From: a virus
Direction: 5' to 3' (one strand)
Length of the DNA stretch: 37,190 nt
Virus record (IMG/VR): IMGVR_UViG_3300033991_000045
Coordinates: 1 to 37,190 of that record
Made by a program: the position numbers and the translations under genes. Numbering within the stretch: position 1 is the stretch's first letter; each line of letters opens with the position of its first letter. Under the pieces are notes generated by a model. That model was not told where the DNA came from and made no database searches. It saw only the letters and a list, made by a program, of their open reading frames with translations. Below are positions 2,080 through 36,410 of this stretch, piece by piece.

Positions 2080-2138
2080 CTGGCCAGGTTGGTGCGTTCG
2101 TTCGCACTGCCGTGACAGTAGCGCGTGATCTCATCCCA
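2080..2138 (-). repeat. 59-bp inverted copy of part of the tail gene at 22370-22428
   Basis: The reverse complement of this segment equals 22370-22428 at 58 of 59 positions. The only difference is A at 2086 against the expected G (C at 22422). At the source it encodes about residues 117-135 of the tail tube-like protein. Here it lies in non-coding DNA immediately right of the MITE and 4 bp left of the -35 box of the rightward promoter. It contains a small internal stem (GTGCG with CGCAC). Confidence 0.92.
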
Positions 2139-2731: not shown

Positions 2732-3064
2732 ATGACGCACTTACCCCGCCATAGAGGGGGCGGAAACCATTTATGTGACATCCAACTTGAGGTCAGGCGG
2801 GTATATCATTCCGCTTGGGAGTTATTCCGCCAATATCACTATCTGAACCAATCCTTTCATAAATCGGCGCGGGCTTTCGTGGCCTTCCTCAATGATGGGA
2901 CACCAGTGGCGTTCCAGGCAGTGATTGCCTCGCCGCACCCAAATCAGAAGGGCATCTATCGCGGTCACCGGGCGGTCTGCCTGCCGGATTACCAGGGGGT
3001 GGGCATCGGCTGGGTGTACTATGGCGTGGGGTTATTGGCCCGCGACGAAGGAGCGCAACCGTGA
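2732..3064 (+). CDS. Truncated GNAT-fold (Mom/acetyltransferase-like) protein
   Basis: The 110-residue protein has an N-terminal region VYHSAWELFRQYHYLNQSF, a central strand AFVAFLNDGTPVAFQAVI and the acetyl-CoA loop-like motif VCLPDYQGVGIG (about residues 82-93). This pattern resembles a group of phage and bacterial GNAT-like proteins that normally continue for another 60-100 residues. Here the sequence stops 17 residues after the loop with a tail (VYYGVGLL) that recurs at 5672, next to an inverted repeat. It is therefore probably a broken gene. No clear ribosome binding site precedes ATG 2732. Relation to Mu Mom is only a structural analogy. Confidence 0.55.
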   Translation: MTHLPRHRGGGNHLCDIQLEVRRVYHSAWELFRQYHYLNQSFHKSARAFVAFLNDGTPVAFQAVIASPHPNQKGIYRGHRAVCLPDYQGVGIGWVYYGVGLLARDEGAQP

Positions 3065-11288: not shown

Positions 11289-11960
11289 ATGCACATTCAC
11301 TTGGCTATACTCAATACCGGCTGGTTGCGGTGGGAACTGTCACAGGCAATCACGCTCATGCTGCTGAACAGGCCGCGCGACATGCACGTCACGCTCGACT
11401 ACGGCTCGTGGGGCCGCAGCATCCCGTCGGCGCGCAACCTGGCGAGGAAGAAGGCGCTCGCGCTGGGCGCTGATTTTCTCGTGATGTGCGATTCGGATAC
11501 GTGGCCGATACAACCGATCACGCCGGAGAGCAACCCGCTGCGGCTGGCCGAGCTTGATTTGGATTACGTCGGCCTGCCGGTGCTATTGTGGCGACCGGGG
11601 ATGCCGGAGCCGGCGGTCGTGCTGAACGTGACGCCGCTGGATAACGCTACGACATTCGACACGAGCAGCGGGGGCTTGCGCGAGGTCAGGCGCATCGGCG
11701 GCGGCTTTCTCGTCGTCGCGCGGCGCGTGCTGGAGAAGATCAAGTTCCGCTATGAGTGGGACGAGGATGGAATCTACCAGGCCGACGAGGACATGCTCTT
11801 TTGCGACGATGCACGCAAGGCTGGCTTCAAGGTGTGGGCCGCGTGCGATTGGCTGCTCGGACACGTGAAAGAGATTGACCTCGTGACTGTGCACGAGGAA
11901 ATTGCAAGACAGCATCAGGTATTGGTGCAGGAGAAAGCTGACGATGCCTTGGAAAGCTGA
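11289..11960 (+). CDS. Glycosyltransferase, GT-A fold (GT2-like)
   Basis: A 223-residue protein from ATG 11289 (GAGGGGGAG upstream). The nucleotide-sugar and metal-binding DxD motif is CDSDTWPIQP (D68 and D70). A later segment RRIGGGFLVVARRVLEKIKF and the acidic acceptor region YQADEDMLFCDDARKAGFKV, followed by a histidine (LLGH), match GT2-type enzymes. It would transfer a sugar to a protein, glycan or modified base in the cytoplasm. Its place between surface protein genes and the capsid protease suggests virion protein glycosylation, which is inference. It overlaps the protease start by 17 nt. Confidence 0.85.
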   Translation: MHIHLAILNTGWLRWELSQAITLMLLNRPRDMHVTLDYGSWGRSIPSARNLARKKALALGADFLVMCDSDTWPIQPITPESNPLRLAELDLDYVGLPVLLWRPGMPEPAVVLNVTPLDNATTFDTSSGGLREVRRIGGGFLVVARRVLEKIKFRYEWDEDGIYQADEDMLFCDDARKAGFKVWAACDWLLGHVKEIDLVTVHEEIARQHQVLVQEKADDALES

Positions 11961-22025: not shown

Positions 22026-23518
22026 GTTACGAGGGATGGCTAACTGAAGGACTCGTGCGGATGACGCACGATGATGCGATCTGGATTCGGCGACATGGCA
22101 CATTCGACCCGTTTACCTACGGCGGCGATTGTATGCGCCTGGACGAAGGAACAGAGGCGCTTGGTGAGATGACCGTCACGCAGAAGAAAAATCCGCGCGG
22201 CGGCCTGGAGCGGCACAGCGTTCTGAAGGCCGGCCCTGCTGAATCAACGACTACGCTGGTAATGAAAAAGTTGCAGTACGACAGAAAAAAGACCGACCTG
22301 AAGTTTTGTTCTTGGGACATTGACCAGCGCGCGCACTGCGGCGGCGTGGATTCGGATGACTGGAACCAATGGGATGAGATCACGCGCTACTGTCACGGCA
22401 GTGCGAACGAACGCACCAACCCGGCCAGTGCCTACGACGGCGACGCTGAGGAGCAGTTGGTACAATTCCCCTGGGCCTCGCTGTGGGTAGAGGACCTGTA
22501 TCGTATCACCGGCGACATTGCGGCCCCATTTGCGACCGCCGTGCAGATCACCGACATGACGAGTTGCCAGCCTGCGCGCTGCCCGGACGTGTGCGATGAC
22601 CAGGAGGATTGCATCGTCGTGACCGTGACGAACGACGATGGGGCGACGCCGAAATTGAGCGTCAACTTGTATGGCGGCGACCTCGATCAGTGGGGTGCAG
22701 TAGTTGCATTGACGTCTTTCGGCATTAACGATGCCTCGCAAGTCGCCTGTTTGGGCAAGCTCATCGTTATCGTCAGCGAGGGCGATGCCTCGATCATCGT
22801 GACGAAGGATTGGGGCGTTACGCAGCGCAATATCACTACGACGGATATGACCGCGCACGCGCCCATCGGCGTAGATATGGTCAACCAAAGTTTTATCGTC
22901 GTAGTCGGTTCTGACGGGTACGTGTTTGGCAGCTACGACGCTGGCACGACCTGGGAGACGTTGAGCGCGGGAACAGCAACGACGCAGGATTTGCATCGAG
23001 TGATGATCGCCCGCGACAACCCGCAGGTCATCTATGCTGTCAGCGAGGATGACGACGTGTGCATCAAGAGCGAGAACGGCGGCAAGACGTGGTATGCGCA
23101 GGCGGCGACCGGTACAGGTGGCGGCCTGACCGCACTGTACGTGGTAGATCAGCGCCACGTCCTCGTCGGCACTGACGCCGGGGAAATATTCGAGTCATCC
23201 AACGGCGCACAGACGTGGACAGAGCAGACGGTGCTAGACGGTCTGGCATCGCAAGCAAATACAACCATCGCAGACATTGACGGCTGCGGTTGCGGCGTAC
23301 TGGGGCTGGTGACGAATAATACCACTGACGATGAGAGCTTTTTTTACCGCAACGTAGACGGTGGAGCGGACGGGCGCTGGTATCAGCCAGCAGAATATGA
23401 GGCAGTCGCCAGCGGCGATGGCCTGGTGGCTGTCACTTGCTGCGGGCCAAATCATTGGATCGGGGCGGGTGGCGACCTGGCAGCTTTCAATACATCGTTT
23501 GTACTGCTGCTTGAGTAA
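22022..23518 (+). CDS. Tail tube-like protein fused to an Asp-box beta-propeller
   Basis: A 498-residue protein with GAGGAGG 7 nt before the ATG. Residues 1-190 look like a phage tail tube domain by place and strand pattern (AIWIRRHGTFDPFTYGGDCM, ALGEMTVTQKKNPRGGLERH, STTTLVMKKLQYDRKKTDLK). The remainder carries repeated Asp-box (BNR) motifs: SYDAGTTWETL, SENGGKTWYAQ and SSNGAQTWTEQ, and a weaker one at TKDWGVTQRNI. These are the blades of a sialidase/YCF48-type beta-propeller, which would stud the tail tube. Residues 50-98 and 117-135 are encoded by DNA copied elsewhere in the window. Tail tube identity is inferred; the Asp boxes are visible. Confidence 0.65.
   Translation: MSYEGWLTEGLVRMTHDDAIWIRRHGTFDPFTYGGDCMRLDEGTEALGEMTVTQKKNPRGGLERHSVLKAGPAESTTTLVMKKLQYDRKKTDLKFCSWDIDQRAHCGGVDSDDWNQWDEITRYCHGSANERTNPASAYDGDAEEQLVQFPWASLWVEDLYRITGDIAAPFATAVQITDMTSCQPARCPDVCDDQEDCIVVTVTNDDGATPKLSVNLYGGDLDQWGAVVALTSFGINDASQVACLGKLIVIVSEGDASIIVTKDWGVTQRNITTTDMTAHAPIGVDMVNQSFIVVVGSDGYVFGSYDAGTTWETLSAGTATTQDLHRVMIARDNPQVIYAVSEDDDVCIKSENGGKTWYAQAATGTGGGLTALYVVDQRHVLVGTDAGEIFESSNGAQTWTEQTVLDGLASQANTTIADIDGCGCGVLGLVTNNTTDDESFFYRNVDGGADGRWYQPAEYEAVASGDGLVAVTCCGPNHWIGAGGDLAAFNTSFVLLLE
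22162..22313 (+). repeat. Source segment of the 152-bp direct copy at 30911-31062
   Basis: Identical to 30911-31062 at 151 of 152 positions; T at 22222 corresponds to C at 30971. It encodes about residues 48-97 of the tail tube-like protein. The match ends sharply on both sides (22161 T against A, 22314 G against A). Confidence 0.95.
22370..22428 (+). repeat. Source segment of the 59-bp inverted copy at 2080-2138
   Basis: The reverse complement is found at 2080-2138 with one mismatch (C at 22422). It starts only 56 nt after the other duplicated segment ends, in the same gene and same protein domain. Confidence 0.92.
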
Positions 23519-23521
23519 CAA

Positions 23522-24211
23522 ATGATCTCGGAATACACGACGACGTGTGGCCCCTGGCGCGGGACACGTCTCCAATTGGGGCGTGTCCCGCGCCAGCGAA
23601 TAGATACGTTTATGGCAGGGTGCCCGGAGCCGGAAATCCCGTGCAAGCGAGCCGACGAGATGGGTGTCGAAGTGTGGGCGCTGCCCGACGAGATGCTGCC
23701 AGACAGGGACAATCCAGCATACATTGTAACGTTTCTCAATTGGCAGGCCGAGTTTTCGCAAGGGATGTTTTCGTTACTCAGCGAGGCAATGGCACTCTCA
23801 GTCGATGATGCGACCAGGGCGCGGAGAGAGTTTGCAGAGTTGCAGCGGCAAGAGCTGGCCGCAGGGGGATATACCGAATGGGCCAGCGTACTGATGAGCA
23901 CGGCGCTAGGTTCCGACGCGGACTTTGGCGCGGCGTGCGAACTGGTACAGTACAACTCTACCGTCACGCTGCGCGGTATTGTCGAGGCGGCGAAGGCATA
24001 CAACGTACGCCTGCGGGGAAAGAAAGTGCCGGTAGCCGTGTTGGGAGACGGCGGCAAAGCGACGGCAAACGGCGAATACAATGACCGAATGGTGGCGCAG
24101 TGGGCCGGGTACAAGTGGGCCGAGTTTTGTGAACTGACCGGACCAGAGCAGAGTGCAGAGGTAGCGCTTTACAGGATTAGCCAGCGGATCGAGAGGATGA
24201 TGAGCAAATGA
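23522..24211 (+). CDS. Hypothetical tail protein, 229 aa
   Basis: Starts MISEYTTTCGPWRGTRLQLG, 3 nt after the previous stop and without a clear ribosome binding site. Codons 11-25 form one of the strongest hairpins in the window. The rest is helical (NPAYIVTFLNWQAEFSQGMF, ATRARREFAELQRQELAAGG, RMVAQWAGYKWAEFCELTGP) and might be a tail assembly chaperone or minor tail protein by position. An alternative start at ATG 23611 (MAGCPEPEIPCKRADEMG) avoids the hairpin but also lacks a site. It overlaps the next gene by ATGA. Confidence 0.6.
   Translation: MISEYTTTCGPWRGTRLQLGRVPRQRIDTFMAGCPEPEIPCKRADEMGVEVWALPDEMLPDRDNPAYIVTFLNWQAEFSQGMFSLLSEAMALSVDDATRARREFAELQRQELAAGGYTEWASVLMSTALGSDADFGAACELVQYNSTVTLRGIVEAAKAYNVRLRGKKVPVAVLGDGGKATANGEYNDRMVAQWAGYKWAEFCELTGPEQSAEVALYRISQRIERMMSK
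23554..23596 (+). other. Perfect 15-bp hairpin inside the start of a tail gene
   Basis: CTGGCGCGGGACACG (23554-23568) pairs without mismatch with CGTGTCCCGCGCCAG (23582-23596) around a 13-nt loop. It starts 36 nt after the stop of the tail tube-like gene. No T-run follows. It may stabilise the upstream abundant mRNA or hold down translation of the gene it overlaps, whose start has no visible ribosome binding site. Confidence 0.9.
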
Positions 24212-25206
24212 AACACGACAATGGCATAAACGTGGCGCGGCACCTGCGCGGCGAGGGGATGCCGCGAAACTGGACGCTGGCTGGCATAAGCTCGGAGGCC
24301 GGCGTCGCCGAGGTATGGCGTTCAAAAAACAATGGGATGGCCTGGGAATGCCTCCTCTCGTTTCCGGGGACGAACTGGATACAGACGATGATCCAGGCAG
24401 CGAACAAACATATCATCGTCGCCGTGAATGTCGGAGGCGGCAATCCCGTCCAGTTTTGGCTATCGCCTGATTACGGCAATAGTTGGGTACAGACCGGCAC
24501 GGCCACAGGCGAGACATACGCATACGACGCCGTGCTTGCGGCAAATGGCGACCTGATCGTCGGGACGGGGCCGGGGGCCGAGTTTTGGCGCAGCCAGAAT
24601 AACGGGCAGACGTGGGCGCAAGTTGCCACGGCGACGGGGGAAGCGTCTGTCAGGAGTTTCGTGGTTGCGGCAAATGGCGACATTCTCGCCGGAACAGGGA
24701 ACAGCGCTGAATTTTGGCGTAGCCAGAATAACGGGCAAACGTGGGCGCAGGTCAGCACGGCGACCGGAGAATCGCGAATCAACAGCCTCGCTCGCGCTGC
24801 CAACGGCGACTTGCTCGCGGGTACGGGGGGCGGGGCCGAGTTTTGGCGCAGCCAGAATAACGGGCAGACGTGGGCGCAGGTAGATGCGGCGGGTGGCGAG
24901 ACAGAGATCAACAGGCTGTTTTGCGCCTCGAACGGCTCCCTGTTTGCCGGTATAGAGTCATCCGGCAAGATATATGGCAGCACTGACAACGGGGCGACCT
25001 GGGGCGCACTCGTCTCGGTCACGGGAGATTCCGTCAACAGCTTCACTGAGACGCGCAAGGCAACACTGCTGGCTTGCACCGAGGAGGCTTCGGCGACCCC
25101 AATCACCAACGCGCAGATCTGGAACTCTAAGGACGGCGGGGTGAATTGGGCATATGCGGCAAACCTGCCGTTCACGTGCGACGCTTTAGTTATGGTTACG
25201 ATTTGA
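24208..25206 (+). CDS. Asp-box (BNR) beta-propeller protein
   Basis: A 332-residue protein formed almost entirely of propeller blades. Asp-box motifs occur at SKNNGMAWECL, SPDYGNSWVQT, SQNNGQTWAQV (three times), STDNGATWGAL and SKDGGVNWAYA, about seven in all. The three central blades are near-identical 43-residue repeats. Such propellers are found in sialidases and many binding proteins; the Asp box is structural, so enzymatic activity cannot be claimed. It lies between tail tube-like and tape measure genes and may be a second tail decoration. Starts by ATGA overlap. Confidence 0.85.
   Translation: MKHDNGINVARHLRGEGMPRNWTLAGISSEAGVAEVWRSKNNGMAWECLLSFPGTNWIQTMIQAANKHIIVAVNVGGGNPVQFWLSPDYGNSWVQTGTATGETYAYDAVLAANGDLIVGTGPGAEFWRSQNNGQTWAQVATATGEASVRSFVVAANGDILAGTGNSAEFWRSQNNGQTWAQVSTATGESRINSLARAANGDLLAGTGGGAEFWRSQNNGQTWAQVDAAGGETEINRLFCASNGSLFAGIESSGKIYGSTDNGATWGALVSVTGDSVNSFTETRKATLLACTEEASATPITNAQIWNSKDGGVNWAYAANLPFTCDALVMVTI
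24580..24882 (+). repeat. 129-bp tandem repeat in the propeller gene
   Basis: The segment GAGTTTTGGCGCAGCCAGAA and its continuation recurs at 24580, 24709 and 24838, exactly 129 bp (43 codons) apart. About 43 nt per unit are nearly invariant, with the rest more varied. This indicates recent internal duplication of propeller blades. Confidence 0.9.
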
Positions 25207-29200: not shown

Positions 29201-30916
29201 ATGGCACAAAATTCGAGACCGATGCCCGATCACATCGATAACTATCCGACGAGCGACGCAGGGCCGTATTCCAGCGACCAATGGCGAGAGCGTATCGCCC
29301 TGGCCGGAACCGTGGGCGATCCGAGCACGGCAAACGAGCGGGCGCAACTGCGCGGGGTCATCCCGACCGTATGGGACAAATTGGTCGTGACAAATCCGGC
29401 GACAAAAACGATGACGGTGGACAACGGCGCTGCCGTCGTCAACGGCAACGTGTTTGTCCACGACCCAACGGTCGCGCCGGCTACAATATCATTCGACCCG
29501 TCCATCCCGGTGGCAGACCGTATCGACCGGGTCGTGGTATGTATGAACAATACCAACGTGGTCTATAACACCAACCTGGAATTTCCTACCGATCTAACTG
29601 ACTATAATGGCACGGCGAGCATCGAGCCGTATTCGTGCCGGCTGGCGATCCTCACAGGCAACGTGGGCGGGGCAATGCGCAATCTGGTACAGACGACCGA
29701 CTATTGGATGATCGAGTTGTCGCGGTATACCATCGACAACGGTGGAAACATCACCGTGGGGCCGACCGACTATCGCGAATTTGCGTGTATCCAGAACATC
29801 GTCGGCGTGCATTCGGACGACGACGATACGGTAAAGGACGCGCTGATCCTGGGTACGCAGGTAGACGACGCGGCGGGTGGAGATGACAATCTAGGCGTAG
29901 CGATCCTGTGGCGGTTGGAGGACGACAGCGGTGAATTGGAGGACGCCGGGCGGCTGGAGATGCGCTGGAGCGATGCGAGCAACGGGGCGGAGGATAGCCG
30001 CTACGAGTTTCGTACGCTGGCGGCAGGGACGGAGAACCTGAGCGGCGTGATCGAGGCTCCGACGATAGCATCAGCAGACGGAAATGCGCGCGGCGCGGCA
30101 GCAGTCGATTGGCAGGGCTGGCGGAGCGCAGCGGCGCAGGTAGCAAGTGGGGTGCGTTCTGTCATCGGCGGTGGAAGTGAGAATATAGCATCGGGTGTAA
30201 CGTCTACGGTATCAGGAGGAAATATAAATACGGCCAGCGGTTCTTATAGTACCGTAGGCGGCGGCTCTACAAATACAGCATCAGGGTCAGAGTCTACAGT
30301 CGCGGGAGGAGGACTTAATCAAGCAACAGGACTGGATTCAGTTGTCAGTGGTGGTACAGTCAATTTGGCAAGCGGTGATTATTCCGTGGTCTTAGGCGGT
30401 GATCAGAATGATGCTACAGGGGATCTAAGTACCGCAGCCGGTGAATATGCGCTTGCCGATAAGTGGGGACAATTTGCCCATGCCTCTGGTAGTACAAGTG
30501 TCGAGGGCGATGCACAAGGTACAATCCAACTGGTTGCCCGCTGCACGGCGGTTCACAACAACGCGAACTGGAACACATTATACCTCGACGGCGCAGGCGC
30601 GTTGCAGCGGATGACCATCGCTGCGTCGTCCGCCTGGACGTTCGACGCCCTGGTCGTGGGCATCACGCTGAACGCGGGGGCGCAATGGGGCTACCGCATC
30701 GTCGGGCTGATCGAGCGTGACAATGCGGGCAACACGACGCTGGCCGCCTCTACCGTGACGACGATCTTCGAGAGCGATGCGAACTTTGCCGCGCAAGCCG
30801 TGGCTGACGACGCAAACGAGGCGCTGTCAATCCAGGTCAGCGACGCGGGTTCTAGCGGCGTGACTGTACGCTGGGTAGCTACGGTGCGCACGGCAGAAGT
30901 GATATTCCCATGGTGA
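29201..30916 (+). CDS. Tail fibre with YadA-like head repeats
   Basis: A 571-residue protein after GGGGGAGG. Residues 1-270 resemble a virion attachment region. About residues 310-420 hold 15-residue-period repeats with the pattern SVIGGGSENIASG, STVSGGNINTASG, STVGGGSTNTASG, STVAGGGLNQATG. These left-handed beta-roll repeats are as in YadA-type trimeric adhesin heads. A C-terminal domain of about 150 residues follows (TIQLVARCTAVHNN to EVIFPW). It is probably a trimeric fibre or collar protein for host binding. The last Trp codon and stop are shared with the first bases of the 152-bp duplicated segment. Base composition of the repeat part is more AT-rich than the neighbours. Confidence 0.8.
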   Translation: MAQNSRPMPDHIDNYPTSDAGPYSSDQWRERIALAGTVGDPSTANERAQLRGVIPTVWDKLVVTNPATKTMTVDNGAAVVNGNVFVHDPTVAPATISFDPSIPVADRIDRVVVCMNNTNVVYNTNLEFPTDLTDYNGTASIEPYSCRLAILTGNVGGAMRNLVQTTDYWMIELSRYTIDNGGNITVGPTDYREFACIQNIVGVHSDDDDTVKDALILGTQVDDAAGGDDNLGVAILWRLEDDSGELEDAGRLEMRWSDASNGAEDSRYEFRTLAAGTENLSGVIEAPTIASADGNARGAAAVDWQGWRSAAAQVASGVRSVIGGGSENIASGVTSTVSGGNINTASGSYSTVGGGSTNTASGSESTVAGGGLNQATGLDSVVSGGTVNLASGDYSVVLGGDQNDATGDLSTAAGEYALADKWGQFAHASGSTSVEGDAQGTIQLVARCTAVHNNANWNTLYLDGAGALQRMTIAASSAWTFDALVVGITLNAGAQWGYRIVGLIERDNAGNTTLAASTVTTIFESDANFAAQAVADDANEALSIQVSDAGSSGVTVRWVATVRTAEVIFPW

Positions 30917-31062
30917 GATGACCGTCACGCAGAAGAAAAATCCGCGCGGCGGCCTGGAGCGGCACAGCGTCCTGAAGGCCGGCCCTGCTGAATCAACGAC
31001 TACGCTGGTAATGAAAAAGTTGCAGTACGACAGAAAAAAGACCGACCTGAAGTTTTGTTCTT
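30911..31062 (+). repeat. 152-bp direct copy of tail gene segment 22162-22313
   Basis: Matches 22162-22313 at 151 of 152 bases (C at 30971 against T at 22222). It begins exactly in the last codon (TGG) and stop (TGA) of the fibre gene and ends one base before the stop codon of a 48-codon ORF, directly upstream of the next gene. It is the only sequence between the fibre gene and the Tat-signal gene. Confidence 0.95.
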
Positions 31063-31064
31063 AA
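30918..31064 (+). CDS. 48-aa ORF made from a copied piece of the tail tube-like gene
   Basis: ATG 30918 lies just after the fibre stop (TGAGATG) and the frame ends at TAA 31062-31064, one base before the next gene's ATG. The peptide begins MTVTQKKNPRGGLERHSVLK and equals residues 50-97 of the tail tube-like protein, in the same frame. The stop arises only because the copied sequence ends in TTCTT followed by AA. No Shine-Dalgarno sequence precedes it, so translation would depend on reinitiation after the fibre gene. It may serve only to couple the flanking genes. Real expression is uncertain. Confidence 0.4.
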   Translation: MTVTQKKNPRGGLERHSVLKAGPAESTTTLVMKKLQYDRKKTDLKFCS

Positions 31065-31065
31065 A

Positions 31066-31281
31066 ATGACGCGGCGCGACTTCCTGAAACTGTGCTGCGT
31101 TGCCGCTGCCGGGCTGATGCTGGGATGGCGGCGACAACAGCAGGCGCAGGCGGCAATAACAGAAACGGAGACAGAAGCTCAGATATGGTCCTTTCCGCTG
31201 GCATTCCCGGCATACTTCGCGCCCAATGCGGATAGGCCACTGCACAGGCAGTACCTACCGCTGATAACGAGCAATGGCTGA
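31066..31281 (+). CDS. Small Tat-signal secreted peptide, 71 aa
   Basis: The N-terminus MTRRDFLKLCCVAAAGLMLG contains the twin-arginine motif (T-R-R-D-F-L-K) followed by a hydrophobic segment and a likely AQA cleavage site near residue 29. The mature part would be only about 42 residues and ends RPLHRQYLPLITSNG. A YLPL(I/V) tail is, as I recall, common on secreted proteins of Anaerolineae. Tat export implies a folded or cofactor-bearing product, odd for such a small phage protein. It has no ribosome binding site of its own because the copied segment lies directly upstream. It overlaps the next gene by 8 nt. Confidence 0.6.
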   Translation: MTRRDFLKLCCVAAAGLMLGWRRQQQAQAAITETETEAQIWSFPLAFPAYFAPNADRPLHRQYLPLITSNG

Positions 31282-32431
31282 ATCGACGTACTACCTGAAA
31301 CTGAAAGACCAGACCGGCGCACAGGTCGCTATCTTTTCCGGCGCAGGGCGCGGAGAATCCGGCGGCGGCTTGCAATCGTTTACCTATCGCAAGAAACTGA
31401 GGGCGTCGGGCAGCCACATGATCAAGATACATGGCGACGACGACCGCCTGCCGCTGCTAGACTTGGACGAGGCCGGGACGCTGGACAGCCAATTCGAGTT
31501 TTACCGCCGCGATCCGGCAGGCGGCCTGGGTTGGTACAAGGATTTCGAGACGTTCCACCGGGGGATGGAGTTCTCAAGCGATGCCGAGGGGCAACTGATA
31601 TTCATGAGCTACGGGGTCGGATACAACGACCTGCTGCTGGCCGAGACGATCCTCTGGCCCGCCGGCAGCGCACAGGCGACAAAGGCGGGGCCGGCCGAAA
31701 CGGTAGCAAAGGAATTCGTCGATGAGAACGTTGGACCCGGGGCGTTGGCCGCCAGCGGGCGCTTCCGAGACGGCGCGATGCCGGGGTTGACCATCCAGGC
31801 GGATGCGGCGACGGGCAATGCCTGGAGCGGCGGGCGCACGTTCAAGAATCTGCTCGATGTGCTGGTCGAGCTGGCAGAAATTGGGCCGGGCGACTACTGG
31901 ATGATGGGAACGGGCGCGGCGGCGTTCGAGTTCCAATGGCGCAATGTGCGCTGGGGGGAAGATAGGACGTTGGGGAACGCAGCCGGAAACGCGCCGGTCG
32001 TATTCTCTGCCAACAACAACAACGCGACGAACATCAGCTATAACTTTCAGCGGTTGAACGAGATCAACGTGTGTGACGTGCTCGGCGGCGGCGTCGGAGC
32101 CAACAGGCAAATCGTGACGCGGACGACGGGCTTCGAGACGGATTCGCCGTGGGGTGTTCGCGCCATCTCGCGGGATGCGCGAGACGAAACGGACACGGTG
32201 GTATTGCAGACGCGCGGCGATGAGGTAATCGCCAAAAATCGCCCATGCCGGCTAGTGTCCTTCGACGTGAAGCAGATGACGGCGACCCGCTACGGTCGGG
32301 ATTGGGACGCGGGCGATTTGGTAACGGTAGAGATACGCGACAGGATGGTTGACGTGAAGATAATCGGGGTCACTATCACCGTGGATAGCAGCGGGGAGGA
32401 ATCTATCACGGTGGACGCGGAGGAAGAATGA
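31274..32431 (+). CDS. Tail hub-like protein (siphovirus ReqiPepy6 Gp37-like)
   Basis: A 385-residue protein whose pattern matches Gp37-like proteins found after Dit in Gram-positive-type siphoviruses. There is an opening strand domain (YYLKLKDQTGAQVAIFSGAG, SFTYRKKLRASGSHMIKIHG), an insertion domain with helices (RTFKNLLDVLVELAEIGPGD) and closing domains (INVCDVLGGGVGANRQIVTR, DWDAGDLVTVEIRDRMVDVK, IGVTITVDSSGEESITVDAE). The last part is typical of phage hub/gpD-like folds. It overlaps both neighbours by a few bases. Family name is from memory. Confidence 0.65.
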   Translation: MAESTYYLKLKDQTGAQVAIFSGAGRGESGGGLQSFTYRKKLRASGSHMIKIHGDDDRLPLLDLDEAGTLDSQFEFYRRDPAGGLGWYKDFETFHRGMEFSSDAEGQLIFMSYGVGYNDLLLAETILWPAGSAQATKAGPAETVAKEFVDENVGPGALAASGRFRDGAMPGLTIQADAATGNAWSGGRTFKNLLDVLVELAEIGPGDYWMMGTGAAAFEFQWRNVRWGEDRTLGNAAGNAPVVFSANNNNATNISYNFQRLNEINVCDVLGGGVGANRQIVTRTTGFETDSPWGVRAISRDARDETDTVVLQTRGDEVIAKNRPCRLVSFDVKQMTATRYGRDWDAGDLVTVEIRDRMVDVKIIGVTITVDSSGEESITVDAEEE

Positions 32432-34896: not shown

Positions 34897-35106
34897 ATGC
34901 GAACTGTGCGCTTTGGATTGCTCTTGTCGGAGCGAGAGCGGGAAGCATTAGCCCGGTTGACTGAGGCCGAAGGCGAGCTTTCCAAGTCAGTTGTGGTACG
35001 TCGCTTGATTCGGCGCGAGGCCAAACGGCGCGGCCTGCTGCTGCCTGTTGACCAACCCGCCCCGGCGCAGAGCGAGCAGGGACAGGTGGGGGCGCAATGC
35101 CGGTGA
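34897..35106 (+). CDS. Ribbon-helix-helix-like DNA-binding protein, end supplied by an IS
   Basis: A 69-residue protein with GGAGG 8 nt before ATG 34897. The segment RTVRFGLLLSEREREALARL, then GELSKSVVVRRLIRREAKRR has the strand-helix-turn-helix order of small RHH regulators. The tail (DQPAPAQSEQGQVGAQCR) is low-complexity. The stop codon TGA (35104-35106) lies inside the insertion sequence's terminal repeat, so the gene may have been longer before insertion. It is probably a regulator acting on the nearby 12-bp repeats, which is speculation. Confidence 0.6.
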   Translation: MRTVRFGLLLSEREREALARLTEAEGELSKSVVVRRLIRREAKRRGLLLPVDQPAPAQSEQGQVGAQCR

Positions 35107-36410
35107 CTGTTCGAACTTTGGTACAGGAGGCTAATAGACGCCCTGACCTACAGCCCAGACCTGCTTGCTTGTCCTATGCAAACAAGAGGGCCAAGTCTGC
35201 TCCACCGCGGTCCAAATGATTGCCGCACCAAGCCAGCAGCCGGCTGACATTCACCGCCGATTTTGGTCGCTTATACCCGCGCATGGTGCGGTACCGCTCC
35301 TTGATCCACCATCCAATGGCACGCTCGCTGCCGTTGTTGGTCCCATCCAACGTCTCACCGTCAGGACCTCGCCAAGTACGGTATTTTGTCAGACGCGGCC
35401 ACAGGTTCCAGCGGTCCAAGAAAAGCAGACGCAAACGATAGGCCGTGGTCGCTTTCTCTCCCGTGCTTGGAGGAGAGGCCGCAAGGTAACGGTAATGCAT
35501 AGTTTCCAATTCGTCCACATCTTCTGGTTTCCGACTGAGGATCAGTTCGCCCAACCGCTTCAAATCGGCTTGGGCCTGCTCTGGGGTCACACCAGCCGCA
35601 GCCAGGGACCCATCCGTGTCAGTCGCCACAGCCGGTTCAAGATTCTCGATCAGGCTCTCTGTGTTGCGCTTGACATGGCTCTTGCAGACCTGGTGATCCC
35701 GTCCCAAGTCGTCAGCCACGGTCTTGAGTGCATCCGCATCGTCCGTCACCAAAATCTCGGCCCCCACCGCCTCGGCGATGGGACCCATCCACTCCTTCAG
35801 CGTGGCTGCGTCCTCTCCCGACAATCCATCCACAGTCAGCACCAGGCCCGTCGTGTCATCCACCGTCAACCCCAAGGGAAACCAATCCCCCTTCACTTTC
35901 ACCGACGTCAAATCTCCTCCCAACGCTGGTGTGCGCACATTCTCGAAGACCTGGTCACGCTTCATGCCCGGCACGCATTCCGCTGCCGCTTGCACAGCAT
36001 CATACACCCGGCTCTTGCACATGTAGACCCCAAGGGCATCCAGCGCCAGAGATACTGCCCCATAACTCAGCCCCAACAGGTACAGCAAGATGCCTAGACC
36101 CTTCACCCGCTGCGATATGTGGTCCTTGCTCACCCCTTTGGGATAAACACGATGGGTGCGAAAACAGCGCAGGCACTGATAGCGGTGCGCTACCACTTGC
36201 GGGTACTTGGTATCGCGCAGAGGCTTCTCGACTTCCTGAATGAACTGGAAATGCGTGCCATCGCAACCCTCGTACGAGCATTCAGACGGCGGCTTGATCT
36301 CATCGGGCTCCACACGCGGCAGTATCAGATGCAGTCGCATTTCTCGTTCGCCTCCCGGCTTCAGTCTGGCCCTAATTCTACACCAATTCTACCGGCTGTC
36401 GAACAGTCAC
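35103..36410. mobile_element. Insertion sequence, about 1308 bp
   Basis: Ends are GTGACTGTTCGA (35103-35114) and its reverse complement (36399-36410), a perfect 12-bp terminal inverted repeat. Inside lies one leftward DDE transposase gene. The 8 bp next to each end (CAATGCCG and GCGACTTC) are not duplicates, so the copy is old, or a flank was rearranged after insertion. The left end matches the MITE-like element at 1916 over 18 of 19 bases. Confidence 0.8.
35174..36340 (-). CDS. DDE-type transposase
   Basis: A 388-residue protein that fills the insertion sequence, with GGGAGG 10 nt before ATG 36340. The N-terminus has two cysteine pairs (C21/C26 and C56/C59) forming a zinc-ribbon-like DNA-binding part. 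Candidate catalytic acids are D143 ([12 protein letters not shown]), D200 or D201 ([12 protein letters not shown]) and E339 ([20 protein letters not shown]). The last motif, with RYRTMRGYK, recalls IS6- or mutator-like DDE enzymes, but the family is not certain. It appears intact, so the element may be active. Confidence 0.85.

Follow-up and report, generated by a model that had tools for sequence, protein, structure and literature searches.

The stretch of DNA analysed here (the window), a linear virus record of 37,190 bp carrying siphovirus-type head and tail genes, contains between a fibre gene and the gene of a small Tat-signal protein a short copy of part of another tail gene. The question raised by this locus is how the copy came to lie there, and whether it does anything for the genes that surround it. 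In our opinion, it is probably the product of a recent duplication driven by microhomology. The insert would have taken the place of a ribosome-binding spacer, and it would owe its survival to a reading frame that relays ribosomes by termination-reinitiation. The features concerned are collected in Table 1.

Table 1. Positions of the copied segments, their sources and the neighbouring genes in the window.
Feature	Position	Strand	Remarks
Donor tail gene, 498 aa	22022..23518	+	N-terminal region conserved in relatives; C-terminal YCF48/BNR-like propeller
Source of 152-bp copy	22162..22313	+	About codons 47-97 of the tail protein
Source of 59-bp copy	22370..22428	+	56 bp downstream of the first source segment, same tail gene
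59-bp copy	2080..2138	-	Inverted, 58/59; noncoding, between divergent promoters
Fibre gene, 571 aa	29201..30916	+	C-terminal domain homologous to Chloroflexota proteins ending in Trp-stop
TGGTGAG, left-border microhomology of 4-7 bp	30911..30917	+	Most likely the fibre gene's native Trp and stop; identical to donor 22162-22168
152-bp copy	30911..31062	+	151/152 to source
48-codon ORF carried by the copy	30918..31064	+	TAA completed by the target side; without usable Shine-Dalgarno
Tat-signal protein, 71 aa, ending ...YLPLITSNG	31066..31281	+	Without Shine-Dalgarno (dG +0.2)
Minor tail protein gene (PHROG 538)	31274..32431	+	Start overlaps the Tat stop; without Shine-Dalgarno

Comparison of the window with itself returned the direct repeat that a preliminary description had reported (151 of 152 bases, E 7e-73), together with a second repeat absent from that description, in which another segment of the same tail gene recurs inverted. 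Beyond these two segments, no further piece of the tail gene recurs in the record. The single mismatch of the longer pair leaves the amino acid of the source frame unchanged (GTT to GTC, Val), both copies have sharp borders, and the small number of differences (1/152 and 1/59) agrees with the recent origin that had been claimed. The junctions were also seen as described: the fibre stop TGA (30914-30916) is followed after one base by the ATG of the copy, the source frame is retained as far as the TAA at 31062-31064, and one more base leads to the ATG of the Tat gene, giving TGA-G-ATG at one end and TAA-A-ATG at the other.

Judged from the sequences, the tail-gene segment at 22162 is the source and the segment at 30911 is derived from it, since relatives have full-length tail proteins with a region that can be aligned to the copied part. 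These relatives belong to three other virus records (G025, G031 and G043), their proteins measure 480-497 aa with 20-26% identity, and the alignment runs through the copied N-terminal region at low identity. The donor ORF itself is intact, and its position in the gene order suggests that the product is a tail tube or major tail protein. In the predicted structure the propeller is confident, and the copied N-terminal part has a pLDDT below 50, for which reason the model of the N-terminus was set aside as evidence. As separate observations in this region, a second BNR-like gene near the donor (24208-25206) contains a 129-bp repeat present three times in tandem (24531-24917), and about five tandem copies of a 27-bp repeat occupy the left end of the contig (1-135).

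At the left border of the copy, donor and recipient share no fewer than 4 bp (TGGT) and perhaps as many as 7, and the origin of these bases can be approached through the homologues of the fibre protein. Its C-terminal domain has homologues in 78 of 396 Chloroflexota genomes of the class, the best with 40-50% identity over approximately aa 315-568. Since Trp followed by a stop ends 13 of the 16 homologues that could be read to their end, as ...RWVATVRTVEVSW, with the Trp-stop written TGG-T(GA/AG), the TGG-TGA at this border is most likely the fibre gene's own and ancestral. The terminal Trp column is moreover invariant in an alignment of 11 sequences that includes the fibre protein of the window. 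The fibre's Trp-stop would thus not have come in with the copy. Viral homologues of the fibre, found separately, end mostly in -TN or -TG, so the fibre of the window resembles the Chloroflexota type. The relatives that were read have the minor tail gene in direct overlap with the preceding Dit-like or tape-measure gene and no fibre or Tat gene between them, and therefore fibre and Tat look like a lineage-specific insert. The combination of the fibre C-terminal domain with a short exported protein bearing a YLPL motif (29201-31281) mirrors a gene pair that is common in Chloroflexota genomes, and the phage pair may have been taken from the host.

The same Chloroflexota pairs suggest what the junction looked like earlier. 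Where a small secreted gene comes next, often with a product ending in YLPLV or YLPLI, the spacer measures 9-11 nt in 10 of 11 cases and the Shine-Dalgarno duplex energies are -7.6 to -11.7. The Tat ATG of the window is preceded by TTTTGTTCTTAAA, which contains no Shine-Dalgarno, and the weakest two of 29 starts scored are those of the Tat gene (+0.2 kcal/mol) and the minor tail gene (+0.6 kcal/mol), most others lying between -6 and -12; the 29 include position 11292, which has no start codon and is to be disregarded, and the ranking at the weak end is unaffected by it. None of the three starts in succession (48-codon ORF, Tat, minor tail) has a good Shine-Dalgarno, and the stop/start pairs 30916/30918, 31064/31066 and 31274/31281 lie within a few bases of each other or overlap. 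The absence of a Shine-Dalgarno before the Tat gene, at a place where homologous gene pairs carry one, lends support to the proposal of a captured translational coupler, which stays plausible.

The argument from improbability that had accompanied this proposal is weak. It had been claimed that such a chain of stops and starts is unlikely for random debris. In a chance test, any 146-nt plus-strand piece of this genome was placed between the fibre stop, which is native, and the Tat start, which reads AAAATGA. In 19% of the pieces a start lay no more than 30 nt from the fibre stop and a stop codon came within a few nt of the start of Tat; the figure was 2.8% if an ATG was required within 10 nt, which puts the share of random segments with a comparable chain at 3-19%. 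Chance followed by survival can account for such an arrangement, and capture for a purpose is not required.

The inverted 59-bp copy bears on the same issue. It has no reading frame, which argues that the copying event itself was neither tied to coding nor selected for it. Its distance from a MITE-like element is about 8 bp, the -35 of a near-perfect promoter follows 4 bp downstream, and the consensus sigma-70 promoters at its two sides face away from it, the leftward one (1900-1872) being perfect (12/12) and the rightward one (2143-2171) near-perfect (11/12). These divergent promoters, on the minus and plus strands respectively, serve a DUF4417 gene and an operon with a VRR-NUC-like nuclease. 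Antisense control by the inverted copy was considered and rejected, since the copy is upstream of both promoters. The MITE-like element (1916-2072) has perfect 15-bp inverted repeats (TGTTCGAAATTTGGG), and an insertion sequence is found at 35103-36410, with a transposase on the minus strand (35174-36340) that gives a weak IS6/IS66 family match. The two elements seem to have the terminal sequence GTGACTGTTCGA in common, and they flank the phage genes, one at each end.

That both copies come from one 267-bp stretch is a mild coincidence, not explained by simple illegitimate recombination; by our own post hoc arithmetic, two source points drawn at random from 37 kb would be no more than 162 bp apart in about 1% of cases. 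The motif TGAGATSAC, which the two sources share at their start, was examined as a possible cut site but discarded, its near-matches in the window numbering 14 vs 14.1 expected.

The record itself has no close relatives in the phage collection searched. Phage records and viral contigs yielded no close relative, at the DNA or the protein level, of the tail gene, the fibre or the Tat pair that could show the empty site, and the tail N-terminus had no match in 400 genomes of the Chloroflexota phylum. As a base rate, about 70 loci of terminase relatives (1.04 Mb including the window) contain one other gene-fragment copy, in L027 and also in its near-duplicate L026, and the other repeats in these loci are promoter repeats or a contig-end repeat; 27 further loci, partly overlapping the first set, contain no gene-fragment copy. 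Fragments of the tail gene are not repeated in relatives, which, together with the noncoding second copy, is as expected for an accident. In L027 the first part of a DNA methylase-like gene recurs 1.1 kb upstream of that gene as a 90-bp copy (1834-1923 / 2975-3064, 97%). The relative G031 (L054 5348-8552) has four near-identical repeats of 47-80 bp (AAAATAGGCCAAAAGTACTATTTGCGGGAAAAGTTTACTGGCGTACAATAA), two of them just before genes, which are apparently repeated promoters.

A sequence of events can be proposed from these observations. A 3' end or a short fragment from the tail gene, from 22162 onward, would have annealed at TGGTGA(G) to the fibre's own Trp-stop, and illegitimate recombination or template switching would have copied or joined in about 145 bp of tail-gene sequence. 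This insertion would have replaced the short spacer that holds the ribosome-binding site of the next gene in homologous pairs, and another fragment, taken 56 bp farther on in the tail gene, would have been inserted inverted near 2080. Recombination of the RecET type is reported to act on identities of 5-13 bp (cited in PMC2327257); no recombinase gene was found among the proteins scanned, which represent part of the ORFs of a contig that may be incomplete. The original spacer, the homology at the right border and the loss of the Shine-Dalgarno are features that we infer, as none of the relatives found is close enough to show the empty site. Ribosomes finishing the fibre could then reinitiate on the 48-codon ORF, next on the Tat gene and finally on the overlapping minor tail gene, and the insertion would be tolerated because the copied frame makes the junctions TGA-G-ATG ... 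TAA-A-ATG.

A bolder version of this proposal has two linked parts, which we regard, taken jointly, as an unlikely possibility: the short tail-gene stretch might be a hotspot, for instance a site of repeated breaks, that sheds fragments into two loci, and the lost Shine-Dalgarno might have been replaced by a duplicated piece of a structural gene of the phage whose sole role is to relay ribosomes and so to keep the downstream tail gene translated. If true, the capture of gene fragments would be a source of translational couplers, and a real relay would mean that useless gene fragments can become fixed as couplers in a simple way. As an origin event, the locus is an ordinary genome accident, with homologues that suggest the earlier look of the junction; it offers a clear and recent case in which a copying accident creates a small ORF embedded at once in the translation of an operon.

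The explanation that survives best among the alternatives is that selection kept the fragment as a coding relay that replaces the Shine-Dalgarno and ties the output of the Tat and minor tail genes to translation of the fibre. We give it a minor but real share of the probability, and this share overlaps with that of the favoured explanation, since the selected relay is a stronger form of its last step. The retained frame with stop-start junctions at both ends, the synonymous nature of the only difference and the fact that the weakest Shine-Dalgarno values fall exactly at the two downstream genes are in line with selection; however, the frequency of similar chains among random segments reduces the weight of the first of these, and the copy is too young for a selection test, with no conservation to draw on.

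The main rival, which we consider improbable, concerns the assembly: chimeras formed in amplification or library preparation would have joined pieces of the tail gene to two places, and the assembler would have followed the chimeric path. The presence of microhomology does not exclude it, because MDA chimeras often begin at short complementary stretches, 85% of them being inverted joins (PMC1855051). Moreover, the derivation of both pieces from one short stretch is as expected had that stretch been over-amplified, and neither junction is backed by a second record. However, each insertion requires two junctions in the consensus, and all four are present in the contig; directly oriented MDA chimeras under 10 kb are rare (11/475, PMC1855051); one base differs between each copy and its source; and the contig has no alternative ribosome-binding site for the Tat gene, so that a chimera would need the native spacer to be lost too.

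A function of the copies as a peptide or a regulatory RNA is very improbable. The 48-codon frame is open and identical to the tail protein; a decoy fragment had been suggested, and a dominant partial tail protein or some other regulatory peptide could be imagined in the same way. However, according to a low-confidence model the copied 48 aa would form just a two-strand-plus-helix piece of a domain, the ORF lacks a Shine-Dalgarno and the other copy derived from this gene has no reading frame. A regulatory RNA fares no better: the structure of the 152-bp copy does not exceed that of shuffles (z 0.12), an Rfam search gave no match, and the 59-bp copy would be transcribed by neither of the promoters that it lies upstream of. 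The idea of a recombination seed likewise found no support, as a direct repeat separated by 8.7 kb would if anything delete the tail module. Finally, it is hardly credible that a whole second tail gene formerly stood here and left the fragment behind, even if partial gene duplicates occur in relatives (the methylase of L027), given the 99% identity, the sharp borders with no decayed remainder on either side and the coincidence of the left border with the native fibre stop.

With regard to known systems, the favoured explanation, a microhomology-driven duplication, is closest to the illegitimate recombination that has been proposed for phage mosaicism. The TGGTGAG at the left border, the sharp borders and an insert that needs no function are common to both, whereas here a short coding fragment would have been copied within one genome instead of a module being exchanged. 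MDA and library chimeras also join distant segments at microhomologies, one of them inverted in this case; they differ in the junction count and orientation given above. The Chloroflexota gene pair resembles the locus in a beta-roll fibre-like protein that ends in ...RWVATVRTVEVSW and a Trp-stop (37-44% identity with the C-terminal domain of the window fibre, alignment A2) and in a small, exported next gene product with a C-terminal YLPLV, the window having a short, exported one with YLPLI near its C-terminus. Where the window has the 152-bp copy, the pair has a spacer of 9-11 nt that carries a strong Shine-Dalgarno, and the signal in the window is of the Tat type. With translational coupling by termination-reinitiation, which is most efficient at very short gaps (PMC12548453) and for which a Shine-Dalgarno is neither required nor excluded by all definitions, the locus has in common a row of TGA-G-ATG, TAA-A-ATG and an ATG...TGA overlap lacking good Shine-Dalgarno sequences. 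The difference is that the intermediate cistron would here be a freshly copied gene fragment.
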